A DNA stretch of 64,000 bases from the NCBI RefSeq assembly GCF_030409845.1, contig NZ_JAUFQQ010000005.1:2274296-2338295 (forward strand), given 5' to 3'. Numbering within the stretch: the stretch's first letter is position 1; every line of letters starts with the position of its first letter. Origin of the DNA: Flavobacterium branchiarum. Lineage in GTDB: Bacteria > Bacteroidota > Bacteroidia > Flavobacteriales > Flavobacteriaceae. Shown piece by piece: positions 38,610 through 41,386 of this stretch. The translations under genes and the position numbers were made by a program. The notes under the pieces were generated by a model. That model saw only the letters and a list, made by a program, of their open reading frames with translations, was not told where the DNA came from and searched no databases.

Positions 38610-39047
38610 ATGGAAGAAAATAAATATGTAACCTATGAGGTTACTTTCAAAGAAACTAAAGAAAAATGGGTTTTTCAGTATCGGAAATCAGATGGAAATC
38701 TCCATTCTTTTTTTAATGATCCAAAAGGAATCGGCATTTTTAATTTGTTCAAAAAAAGAACATTTCCTGAAACAGTAGCAATGATAGAAGAATGGAGTCA
38801 GTACAAACACATTGTAACTATCGAACTCAAACTGGAAGATTATAGTTTCGAAGCTCTTTATAATAAGTATGGACTAAAAAGGAAAGGCGATTTAGCCAAA
38901 AAAGCCTACGAAAAACTAGACTTGCCCACCAAGATAAAAGTTTTTAATGTGATTCCAAAATACGAAGCCGATTTGGCAAAAACAGGACAAGCAAAAGCGC
39001 ATTTAGTGACTTGGTTAAATCAAAAAAGATACAACGACGAATATTAA
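38610..39047 (+). CDS. Hypothetical protein upstream of the DGR targets
   Basis: This 145-residue protein combines a beta-rich N-terminus (VTYEVTFKETKEKWVFQYR) and a helical C-terminus. It starts 6 bp after the previous gene and ends 19 bp before the first DGR target. The size is close to DGR accessory (Avd) proteins, but the beta-rich N-terminus argues against the four-helix Avd fold, so no function is assigned. Confidence 0.6.
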   Translation: MEENKYVTYEVTFKETKEKWVFQYRKSDGNLHSFFNDPKGIGIFNLFKKRTFPETVAMIEEWSQYKHIVTIELKLEDYSFEALYNKYGLKRKGDLAKKAYEKLDLPTKIKVFNVIPKYEADLAKTGQAKAHLVTWLNQKRYNDEY

Positions 39048-39066: not shown

Positions 39067-39543
39067 ATGAATGAAACATTAACAGCCGATAAAGGCAAAG
39101 TAATAACTGCTTACAACAAAGCAAAAGGTGGTAGAAAAGTATTCTTAGAAAACATTTTCGGAATGAAAACCTTTCAACCAGAAATAAAAGAACGCATCAC
39201 GAGCCTTAATGATGCGCTTCGGGAAAATGGGGTTTCAGAAAAAAAGTTCAGAGAATCATGCGAGGGACTGTCACCAGACGAAGTTGCTTATAAGATGATC
39301 AAAGAAATAGTAAAAGCATTTAACGAAGGTTGGGTACCAGACTGGTCAGATAGCAGTCAAAATAAATACTATCCATGGTTTAAGATGAGTTCTCCTTCGG
39401 GTGGCGGTTTTTCGTACGACGACTACGATGGTTGGAGCACGTGTTCGGGTGTCGGCTCGCGCCTTTGCTTTAAATCAGCTGATTTAGCCAAACATGCTGG
39501 ACAATTATTTGAGAGTATTTACAAAGATTTTTTAACCGCTTAA
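39067..39543 (+). CDS. DGR variable protein 1
   Basis: This 158-residue soluble protein has no signal peptide or membrane segment. Residues 1-85 are helical. From about 88 there is a conserved block (GWVPDWSD, then KYYPWFKM), then the variable repeat (residues 108-135) and a conserved tail GSRLCFKSADLAKHAGQ to the end. Differences from the template lie at adenine positions except one. I have seen proteins with GSRLCFKS-type tails in Bacteroidota phages and prophages. The variable block probably forms a ligand-binding surface; the ligand is unknown. The hypervariable segment is internal, with 23 invariant-type residues after it. Confidence 0.9.
   Translation: MNETLTADKGKVITAYNKAKGGRKVFLENIFGMKTFQPEIKERITSLNDALRENGVSEKKFRESCEGLSPDEVAYKMIKEIVKAFNEGWVPDWSDSSQNKYYPWFKMSSPSGGGFSYDDYDGWSTCSGVGSRLCFKSADLAKHAGQLFESIYKDFLTA
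39388..39470 (+). repeat. DGR variable repeat 1 (VR1)
   Basis: This 83-bp repeat aligns without gaps to the template at 39957-40039 (offset 569). I count 14 differences: 13 at template adenines (of 21 adenines) and one G-to-T near the 3' end. Eleven adenine changes are A-to-G and two are A-to-T. Variable codons correspond to template AGT, AAC, AAT, CAC and AGC codons. Confidence 0.93.
39471..39486. promoter_or_regulatory. Perfect palindrome directly after VR1 (candidate DGR target hairpin)
   Basis: TAAATCAGCTGATTTA begins at the base after VR1. As a hairpin it has a 6-bp stem and AGCT loop. In the Bordetella phage DGR a hairpin/cruciform a few bases after VR is required for target recognition. 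The equivalent position after VR2 lacks a comparable palindrome. Confidence 0.5.
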
Positions 39544-39552
39544 AACCATATT

Positions 39553-39927
39553 ATGTACACAGACATTAAAACATTCGAAGATGCTTGTAAGGTTTTGAAC
39601 CTTGACCCAGCAATTATCATTCCTGATTTTGCATTATTTCCAGAATCAGATAGACAGGCAATGATTGATCACACCAAATTAGTAATCATAGCTAAAGCCA
39701 TAAACGGCGACTGGGTACCAGACTGGAATGATTGGGATCAGTATAAATACTATCCATGGTTCAAGATGGGTTCTCCTTCGGGTGGCGGTTTTTCGTTCGA
39801 CGTCTACGATTGTTGGGGCACGCATTCGGATGTCGGCTCGCGCCTTTGCTTTCAAACCAGAGATATGGCAAAGTATGCCGGAAAACAGTTTGAAGAATTG
39901 TACAAAAGCTATTTCGTAAAAGCATAA
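39553..39927 (+). CDS. DGR variable protein 2
   Basis: This 124-residue protein is paralogous to variable protein 1 from about residue 53 onward (GDWVPDWND, KYYPWFKM, variable repeat at 73-100, then GSRLCFQTRDMAKYAGKQF). Its N-terminal half differs and is shorter (YTDIKTFEDACKVLNLDP). No signal or membrane segment. It starts 9 bp after variable protein 1. Two targets served by one template and sharing constant flanks suggest a pair of binding modules on different N-terminal scaffolds. Confidence 0.9.
   Translation: MYTDIKTFEDACKVLNLDPAIIIPDFALFPESDRQAMIDHTKLVIIAKAINGDWVPDWNDWDQYKYYPWFKMGSPSGGGFSFDVYDCWGTHSDVGSRLCFQTRDMAKYAGKQFEELYKSYFVKA
39769..39851 (+). repeat. DGR variable repeat 2 (VR2)
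   Basis: This 83-bp repeat aligns without gaps to the template (offset 188). I count 16 differences: 15 at template adenines and the same single G-to-T as VR1. Changes include A-to-G, A-to-T and A-to-C. VR1 and VR2 differ from each other at eight positions, all template adenines. Confidence 0.93.
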
Positions 39928-39939
39928 TAAATGAGGTTG

Positions 39940-40057
39940 TGTGGTGTCGTTGCTGTAGTTCTCCTTCAGGTGGCAGTTTTTCGTACAACGACTACGATAA
40001 TTGGAACACGAATTCGAATGTCAGCTCGCACCTGAGCTTAAAATATTAAACACCACA
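39940..40057 (+). ncRNA. Predicted DGR template RNA bracketed by an inverted repeat
   Basis: TGTGGTGT (39940-39947) and ACACCACA (40050-40057) are perfect complements flanking the template repeat, 102 bp apart. Pairing would close the template RNA into a large stem-loop ahead of the reverse transcriptase gene. The exact transcript ends are unknown. Confidence 0.55.
39957..40039 (+). repeat. DGR template repeat (TR)
   Basis: This 83-bp template lies between variable gene 2 and the reverse transcriptase gene. It is rich in AAC/AAT and AGY codons in the target frame (reading SYNDYDNWNTNSN in the middle), the hallmark of DGR templates, where adenine mutagenesis maximises amino-acid change. It contains 21 adenines, of which 13 and 15 are replaced in VR1 and VR2. 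The 3' block GCTCGCACCTGAGCTT differs from both VRs at the same fixed positions, as expected for IMH versus IMH*. Confidence 0.93.
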
Positions 40058-40140
40058 GACCTTGCCAACAGGGCAAAAAAACACAAAATTAATAGGTTCG
40101 TTAGTAAAGTAATTGAAAGCGAGCCAATCTAAGCAAAGCA

Positions 40141-41103
40141 ATGAAACGAATCAATAATTTATACAGTCAGATTGCATCTGTTGATAATTTAAGGATTGCC
40201 GAAACTAAAGCAAGAAAAGGTAAATCCAATCAATATGGTGTCAAGATTTTTGATAAAGACCCCGAAAGCTATATTATCAAACTTCATGAGATGCTTTTAA
40301 ATAAAGAGTATAAAACCTCACAATACACAACCTTCACCGTTTTTGAGCCTAAAGAAAGAATTGTTTTTCGTCTTCCTTACTTCCCTGACCGAATTACCCA
40401 TCATGCTGTAATGAATGTTTTAGAATCAATATTTGTTAAAGTTTTTACAGAAGATAGCTATGCGTGTATAAAGAAAAAAGGAATTCATGCAGCTACCAAC
40501 AATATCAAAATAGCCTTAAAAGACCAGGATAATACAAAATACTGTTTGAAGTTGGATATTGTCAAGTTTTATCCTAATATAGATCATGATATACTAAAAG
40601 CGTTACTTAGGAAGAAATTCAAGGACAATGACCTACTTTGGCTACTGGACGAAATTATTGATAGCGCTGATGGTTTACCAATAGGCAATTATCTAAGTCA
40701 ATACCTGGCTAACTTTTATCTTACCTATTTTGATCATTGGATCAAGGAAAACAGAGGGATTAAATATTATTTCAGATATGCCGATGACATTGTAATCCTT
40801 TCGAATAACAAACCTCATTTACACGAAATTTTATCACTGATTAAACAGTATTTAAACGCCAATTTAAGACTTCAGGTAAAAGACAATTATCAAGTGTTCC
40901 CTGTTGAAGCTCGTGGAATTGATTTTGTAGGCTACAAGTTCTACCACACGCACACACTGCTTCGGAAATCAATTAAAAAACGATTTGCTAAGGCAGTTTC
41001 CAAAACAAAAAACAAGGCTACTATAGCCGCTTATAATGGATGGGCGAAACATTGCAATTCCAAACACTTATTAAAAAAAATACTTCCCAATGAACAATTT
41101 TAA
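40141..41103 (+). CDS. DGR reverse transcriptase
   Basis: This 320-residue protein has RT motifs in order: RIVFRLPYFPDRITHHAV (73-90), the catalytic Asp in LKLDIVKFYPNID (about 137-148), IGNYLSQ (181-187) and YADD (213-216), then a thumb-like basic region. The [IVL]GxxxSQ form of motif 4 separates DGR RTs from retron and group II intron enzymes (QGxxxS/P). It makes error-prone cDNA from the template RNA, misreading adenines, which replaces the variable repeats. Start at ATG 40141, 100 bp after TR. No endonuclease or maturase domain. Confidence 0.95.
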   Translation: MKRINNLYSQIASVDNLRIAETKARKGKSNQYGVKIFDKDPESYIIKLHEMLLNKEYKTSQYTTFTVFEPKERIVFRLPYFPDRITHHAVMNVLESIFVKVFTEDSYACIKKKGIHAATNNIKIALKDQDNTKYCLKLDIVKFYPNIDHDILKALLRKKFKDNDLLWLLDEIIDSADGLPIGNYLSQYLANFYLTYFDHWIKENRGIKYYFRYADDIVILSNNKPHLHEILSLIKQYLNANLRLQVKDNYQVFPVEARGIDFVGYKFYHTHTLLRKSIKKRFAKAVSKTKNKATIAAYNGWAKHCNSKHLLKKILPNEQF

Positions 41104-41386
41104 AGATTTTAAAATAAAAGCCGAATTATCCACTTTTACAGGCGATAAAATAAAAATAGATAGATTATTAAATGCCGAAATATCAGTACTAGCCTATAAA
41201 ATTGAGGATTCGAAAGTAAAACAAGGAACAAAGCTCTTGATACTTCAACTCGAAAAATCAGGCATCAAACACGTTTTATTCACAGGATCAAACATTTTAA
41301 TGCAAATGATTAAACAAGTACCTGAAGACAAATTCCCATTCAAAACAACAATAATAAAAGAATCAGAACATTTAGAATTTACTTAA
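41090..41386 (+). CDS. Hypothetical protein overlapping the RT gene
   Basis: This 98-residue protein overlaps the RT stop by 14 bp, so it is translated with it. It contains a KHVLFTGSNILMQMIKQVPE segment that reminds me of small phage ssDNA-binding/annealing-type proteins, though I cannot confirm the family. Since no Avd gene is evident, it is a candidate DGR accessory factor. Confidence 0.6.
   Translation: MNNFKDFKIKAELSTFTGDKIKIDRLLNAEISVLAYKIEDSKVKQGTKLLILQLEKSGIKHVLFTGSNILMQMIKQVPEDKFPFKTTIIKESEHLEFT

Follow-up and report, generated by a model that had tools for sequence, protein, structure and literature searches.

Phage diversity-generating retroelements (DGRs) are mostly read as diversifying receptor-binding proteins, whereas the two targets identified for an element in a Mu-like prophage of Flavobacterium branchiarum both belong to an early block of genes. 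This raises the question of what else phages diversify, and by which machinery. We examined the locus within a stretch of 64,000 nucleotides (contig NZ_JAUFQQ010000005.1, positions 2,274,296 to 2,338,295, forward strand; hereafter the window, with position 1 as its first letter), together with its relatives in phage and bacterial genomes.

A DGR with Two Early Targets

A base-by-base check established that positions 39067-41386 of the window hold a DGR, which consists of the paralogous genes t1 and t2, one template repeat (TR), a DGR-type reverse transcriptase (RT), and the small gene dn98 (table 1). A preliminary description of this DNA had reported three gap-free 83-bp copies starting at 39388, 39769, and 39957, with 13 and 15 of 21 template adenines changed in the variable repeats VR1 and VR2 and a single, shared change at another base; realignment of the TR with both VRs gave exactly these positions and counts. 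Three features had gone unnoticed in it: dn98, two additional cassettes in the genome, and an RNA structure around the TR. Similarity between the copies, which are free of gaps, runs on beyond the 83-bp core to about 88 bp, and the bias toward adenines over the 83 bp is highly significant (Fisher p = 5e-9 for VR1 and 7e-11 for VR2). The lone non-adenine difference is a G to T at TR position 40034; at 40034-40037 the TR reads GAGC and both VRs read TTGC, and this departure at the 3' edge of the TR is as expected for IMH* versus IMH. In the 60 bases searched 3' of each VR, a 7-bp inverted repeat follows VR1, and no repeat reaching 5 bp follows VR2. If all adenines of the 88-nt TR vary, its 18 adenine-bearing codons allow about 3e13 protein variants, and one codon could turn into a stop.

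Table 1. Features of the Cassette in the Window
Feature	Position	Strand	Evidence and remarks
Target gene t1, 158 aa, early block, holds VR1	39067..39543	+	ORF; phrog_11581 (function unassigned), E 6.6e-22
Variable repeat VR1, in t1	39388..39475	+	88-nt TR copy; 13/21 TR adenines changed in 83-bp core
Target gene t2, 124 aa, paralogue of t1, holds VR2	39553..39927	+	ORF; phrog_11581, E 7.6e-28
Variable repeat VR2, in t2	39769..39856	+	15/21 TR adenines changed in 83-bp core
RNA helix H1, 5' strand, encloses TR	39935..39947	+	Pairs with 40050-40061
Template repeat (TR)	39957..40044	+	3' end from 40034 differs from both VRs; identical in the genome's three copies
RNA helix H1, 3' strand	40050..40061	+	Covariation in aligned TR regions
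RNA hairpin H2, inside RT-17-like element 40058-40145	40062..40076	+	3/5 pairs doubly changed; 85.4% of cells paired
DGR-type reverse transcriptase, 320 aa	40141..41103	+	phrog_1423, E 1.9e-122; Pfam RVT_1; IGNYLSQ, YADD
dn98, 98-aa candidate RT accessory protein, overlaps RT end	41090..41386	+	OB-fold-like model

An A-tolerant scan of both strands of the 64-kb window gave no further match to the TR. Accordingly, the tail-fibre region at 61-64 kb yielded no VR, and the known targets are both early-block genes, as had been claimed from the first inspection. The Mu-like setting proposed at the same time is borne out by a transposase (phrog_310), a DNA transposition protein (phrog_296), and a Portal_Mu match above cut-off (E 9e-60), that is, by the transposase, transposition ATPase, and Mu-type portal of a transposable prophage; matches to Phage_Mu_F and Mu-like_Pro were below cut-off. 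Judged from its sequence, the locus is the DGR of a Mu-like prophage and probably a working one. The ORF upstream of t1 (38610-39047) bears a weak likeness to replication initiation proteins (phrog_270, E 1e-4), and its counterpart also adjoins the cassette in several relatives.

Sister Prophages in the Same Genome

The two further copies lie in related prophages, C3:1222k (L009) and C3:180k (L010). The former matches the window with 99.88% identity across 14.9 kb of late-block sequence and with 98.0% identity across 4.4 kb around the cassette. Because identity differs by block, a plain duplication is ruled out; this sister is a mosaic, and its VRs may therefore have diverged elsewhere. Between its VRs and those of the window there are 19 differences, 18 of them at the 50 template-adenine positions and one (39770) at the 126 other positions, while none occurs in 39928-40140, TR included. 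Hence these VRs, like VR1 and VR2 relative to the TR, differ almost only at template adenines rather than by random substitutions outside them, in line with the preliminary description, and the comparison supports adenine-directed VR change. The other 123 differences in the alignment comprise 22 in the RT gene (963 bp), one in dn98, seven and eight in t1 and t2 outside the VRs, and 69 outside the listed ORFs, to which alignment-end effects may contribute.

The third cassette, at C3:180k, has diverged further but retains an identical TR, and the VRs differ among the three copies. Such differences between sister prophages are consistent with ongoing mutagenic retrohoming. The pattern could in principle be an old one, left in a relic whose RT no longer works, given that a single genome is a snapshot and that four loci elsewhere (L069, L073, L125, and L152) have targets and a TR with no RT found in the stretch at hand. 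We regard this as very improbable here, as the RT and dn98 frames are open in all three copies, and the TR has stayed the same while the VRs differ, between sisters almost only at adenines.

The Reverse Transcriptase and Its Neighbour dn98

The motifs IGxxxSQ and YADD had been recognized at the outset; the ORF indeed reads IGNYLSQ and YADD, which correspond to the GxxxSQ and YxDD described as DGR RT motifs (PMC11054128), and the profile matches agree (table 1). The preliminary description had also called the element complete. This holds for the TR, the VRs, and the RT, but no Avd was recognized in the window cassette, where the accessory position after the RT is occupied by the unrelated small protein dn98. 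About a quarter of DGRs are described as having no accessory homologue (PMC7290462). The structure model of dn98 is a barrel, whose nearest neighbours in a VIA-align comparison are OB folds; its comparison with the sequences of solved structures returned a single row (E 0.59), and no Pfam match was above cut-off.

dn98 is a conserved RT neighbour, fused to an RT in BT-TP2, and in 395 genomes of the phylum all seven places where it was found, three in the F. branchiarum genome and four elsewhere, follow a DGR RT. Each of the four has a TR/VR pair, and at three of them the target is a longer protein without match to the t1/t2 profile. The same order of tail target, TR, RT, and dn98 is seen in an archaeal virus (Caudoviricetes vir525, Methanosarcinales; L183, 2549-5279). 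From this recurrent association we infer that dn98 may be an RT cofactor. The LoVEphage-type RT (L184, 41477-43020; L187, 23164-24707) is split over several frames, the last of which bears a dn98-like domain.

An RNA Helix Enclosing the Template Repeat

The flanks of the TR are joined by H1, a helix of 11 pairs with 98.3% of cells paired and 9 of the 11 pairs changed on both sides in 63 aligned TR regions. In these 63 sequences, H1 and H2 together score 0.477 for covariation; shuffles score 0.182 (sd 0.010), and slid controls do not exceed 0.131. Because this set (the window and 62 of 91 candidates) had been selected, and the structure named after the helices were seen, we recounted H1 on the window and all 91 candidates. 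In the 92 sequences 97.1% of cells are paired, compared with 33-53% in slid controls, and 186 cells are doubly changed, whereas 200 shuffles average 43 such cells and reach 72 at most. The 29 sequences omitted from the first set are 96.4% paired, and in 5 of the 92 family members fewer than nine of the 11 pairs form.

The window matches the Rfam model RT-17 (RF03020) with 33 bits, below the gathering score of 40.4 (E 8.7e-5 on a short stretch), and of 10 further loci compared with the model, one exceeds the Rfam threshold (L085, 43.5 bits). As in RT-17, the element of the window lies between TR and RT; however, the matched model starts after the TR, and H1, which encloses the TR, is outside it. 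By eye, a possible third helix can be drawn in the RT-17 region at 40092-40130, GGTTCGTT with AGCGAGCC around an AGTA...GAA loop. No support was obtained for H1 as a feature shared generally by DGRs with related RTs: among eight other DGRs, only L196 was clearly above shuffles (fraction 0.01), Versailles was nearly so (0.055), and H1 was not evident against shuffles in LoVEphage, PV4-TP1, cr52, vir525, L197, and L198. In BPP-1, a structured spacer is described as recruiting RT-Avd, and a termination signal lies upstream of the TR (PMC12875486); by analogy, H1 could bring spacer-like and upstream-signal ends together in the window cassette. DGRs without Avd could be approached through both a candidate cofactor of the RT and an RNA clamp supported by covariation.

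Conservation of the Cassette

Viral loci were gathered with a t2 scan (38 loci) and with an alignment of seven relatives (79 loci, from the best 80 of 323 matches), the contigs of which overlap; 45 genome loci came from titled records of Bacteroidota, Ignavibacteria, and Chlorobi. After removal of loci sharing the target's last 60 residues, and of L050, which has no called target ORF, 84 viral and 44 genome loci were left. In these viral loci (a set that includes the best 80 of 323 matches) and genome loci, respectively, we found an RT at 75 and 28, a TR with an A-biased VR at 76 and 30, two or more target ORFs at 77 and 32, dn98 at 71 and 26 (70 of 75 and 26 of 28 when only RT-bearing loci are counted), RT and dn98 with two or more VRs at 60 and 22, and a window-like MuA or MuB at 24 and 9, detection of the last being limited by flank length and single-sequence queries; cuts at contig ends can lower all these counts, and ORF fragments may raise those of targets. 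Within the stretch at hand, 14 of the 44 genome loci are without TR and 16 without RT.

As MuA or MuB accompanies a minority of loci, the cassette probably extends beyond Mu-like phages. At three loci with no MuA/MuB match (L153, L101, and L073), the neighbours include RecT, ERF, C5 and N6/N4 DNA methylases, and a PAPS reductase domain, with a terminase further on in two of them. The element is also patchy, since a t2 match was present in 4 of 299 genomes of the family, the window's own included. In 223 distinct TR/VR pairs, changes affect 69.9% of adenines and 0.5% of other bases, figures that lean toward the DGR pattern because pairs with fewer than six A changes or more than three others had been excluded beforehand; A to G is the commonest change (1774 of 3227). 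A cassette conserved across many phages from Bacteroidota and related groups, with two target genes of fewer than 160 codons, makes a simple system for asking what else phages diversify.

The Target Family

No known domain was found in t1 or t2 with Pfam (E up to 1) or PADLOC, phrog_11581 was the sole PHROG match, and a PDB profile search returned only rows at E 0.17 or worse. t1 has no strongly hydrophobic stretch, its best 19-residue Kyte-Doolittle mean being 0.31; that of t2 is 1.32. Target-family searches of the protein collection gave 1379 and 3425 relatives, a protein of F. gilvum being the nearest named one (83% identity). Among the eight long relatives listed, six (P0121, P0122, P0123, P0125, P0127, and P0129) have two full target domains, the other two being seemingly partial two-domain proteins. 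The halves of P0121 resemble t1 and then t2, in that order, and in Sphingobacterium griseoflavum (L098) a protein with two target domains adjoins RT and dn98. These natural fusions, and the t1-t2 order of P0121, argue that t1 and t2 work together, probably as a pair with one variable segment each.

A structure model of a homologue with two domains reached a pTM of 0.49, with low confidence in the variable segments, and Foldseek returned no match to it at E ≤ 0.001, a result that excludes nothing. For a C-type lectin fold in t1/t2, there is thus neither a Pfam match nor a structural match to this low-confidence homologue model. Arrays of four target genes occur in L034/L073/L170 and in L079 (Aquimarina); within the stretch at hand, L073 has a TR without RT, and L079 has neither.

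Homologues as Distant Second Targets

Eleven named phage records contain a target homologue: LoVEphage (4), PV4-TP1, BI-TP1, BT-TP2, Versailles, and three crAss-like phages. The homologues of LoVEphage, Versailles, and cr52 were initially taken for invariant relatives without a DGR because no RT lies near them, an idea ruled out by the matching TR beside a distant RT. A TR scan covering parts of 4 of the 11 records found the homologue to differ from the distant-RT TR only at adenines, at 11 of 25 in LoVEphage, 17 of 25 in PV4-TP1, 14 of 22 in Versailles, and, over 63 nt only, 12 of 18 in cr52. The RT-adjacent tail protein matches the same TR with 14 of 27, 16 of 27, 12 of 23, and 22 of 31 adenines changed, respectively, and one other mismatch in each phage except cr52, which has none. 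In these four phages one template therefore serves both a tail protein and a protein encoded elsewhere, unlike in the window cassette, for which the early family is the sole target found.

The homologue lies among early genes, which include those for a Lar-like protein, methyltransferases, and a Holliday junction resolvase in LoVEphage, where it is on the strand opposite to the tail genes, for a methyltransferase and a Holliday junction resolvase in PV4-TP1, and for SbcC, NinB, and a replisome organizer in Versailles, where it is annotated "tail protein". In BT-TP2 (L055, 7893-8258), a homologue without annotated gene runs off the end of the deposited record.

A second DGR target near defence-related genes has already been published. 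In Quimbyvirus, a DGR target lies among defence-related genes, and a role in conflict was suggested for it (Benler et al. 2021, PMC8008677); four gut prophage species are described as having a second VR that lies distally, close to counter-defence genes (Nature 2025, PMC12629997). The preliminary description had considered a target outside the tail module unusual: the early, non-tail position stands, but these reports make it less so. The window cassette shares with Quimbyvirus and LoVEphage a VR in a nonstructural gene of this kind, and the LoVEphage gene, a t1/t2 homologue with A-only mismatches to its TR, may, from its neighbourhood rather than from sequence comparison, be the ORF of Benler et al. 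Theirs, however, is one remote extra beside a tail-side target, whereas both known targets of the window belong to the early family and adjoin the RT, and its TR has no match in a tail gene there. From titles and abstract openings in the accessible literature, we found no publication on the window cassette, dn98, or a TR-enclosing helix.

What the Targets May Do

We propose that transcription of the cassette would yield a TR RNA, the two ends of which H1 would clamp together beside the RT-17-like element. The RT and its putative partner dn98 would copy this RNA, misreading adenines, and the mutated cDNA would replace VR1 and VR2. The t1 and t2 products, small early-block proteins with one variable segment each and probably paired, would most likely be diversified binders of intracellular partners, for example factors of host defence or takeover, or parts of rival phages. 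To this explanation as a whole, in which RT and dn98 copy an H1-clamped TR and the targets bind inside the cell rather than serve tail receptor-binding, we assign a probability of about 0.55. Intracellular binding is favoured by position, size, the absence of strongly hydrophobic segments, and surroundings that are repeatedly early and close to defence genes. That the targets interact with something other than a receptor had already been supposed from the window, and the idea fits the homologues among recombination, methyltransferase, and replication genes of other phages. If intracellular binding is the right reading, the virus keeps renewing a binding surface for a contest inside its host cell. 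More tentatively, t1 and t2 might form a two-chain, antibody-like intracellular binder, for which a dedicated DGR, with its OB-fold RT cofactor and RNA clamp, would redraw the paired variable segments and so neutralize changing proteins of host defence or rival phages. In unrelated gut phages, a single template diversifies members of this family along with the tail protein.

It is rather unlikely that t1 and t2 are minor virion or receptor-binding components, with displaced genes and a DGR serving host recognition as in BPP-1. Viral targets in the main viral DGR clades are described as mostly annotated tail proteins (Roux et al. 2021, PMC8144416), and both the template shared with a tail protein in four phages and the annotation of the Versailles homologue point the same way; but the genes sit in early blocks of Mu-like and other phages, the LoVEphage homologue is opposite in strand to the tail genes, and the two proteins, of 124-158 aa, have no Pfam match. 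We give a similarly low rating to a role in the lysogen against other phages or the phage's own kind, that is, superinfection control through binding of competitors' variable entry or early proteins. Three related prophages with different VRs in one genome, prophage-borne genes without strongly hydrophobic stretch, and the conflict role suggested for the Quimbyvirus gene (PMC8008677) would suit it, yet homologues also occur in crAss-like phages.

Relation to Other DGRs

With BPP-1 the window cassette has in common a TR, a VR, an adenine-specific RT, and a boundary of IMH/IMH* type; the differences lie in the target, which is the tail protein Mtd in BPP-1, and in the accessory protein, which is Avd there and dn98, with its OB-fold-like model, here (PMC6199706, PMC12875486). 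Hankyphage of Bacteroides is also a transposable phage with a DGR, but its target is described as a large ORF of tail-fibre type, and an Avd-like gene is present (PMC6199706, PMC12135933). The closest RTs by identity are those of crAss-like phages, which are the best named relatives (57.7%). Their DGRs (lineage 3) share the order target-TR-RT and have no avd reported (PMC7290462), and they differ in having a tail-collar target; the RT of the window may belong to lineage 3. No dn98-like ORF was found beside the cr52 RT under table 11, a weak negative because only this table was used and the RT is in pieces under it. This annotated cr52 RT (L013, 8001-9026) perhaps contains a recoded stop.
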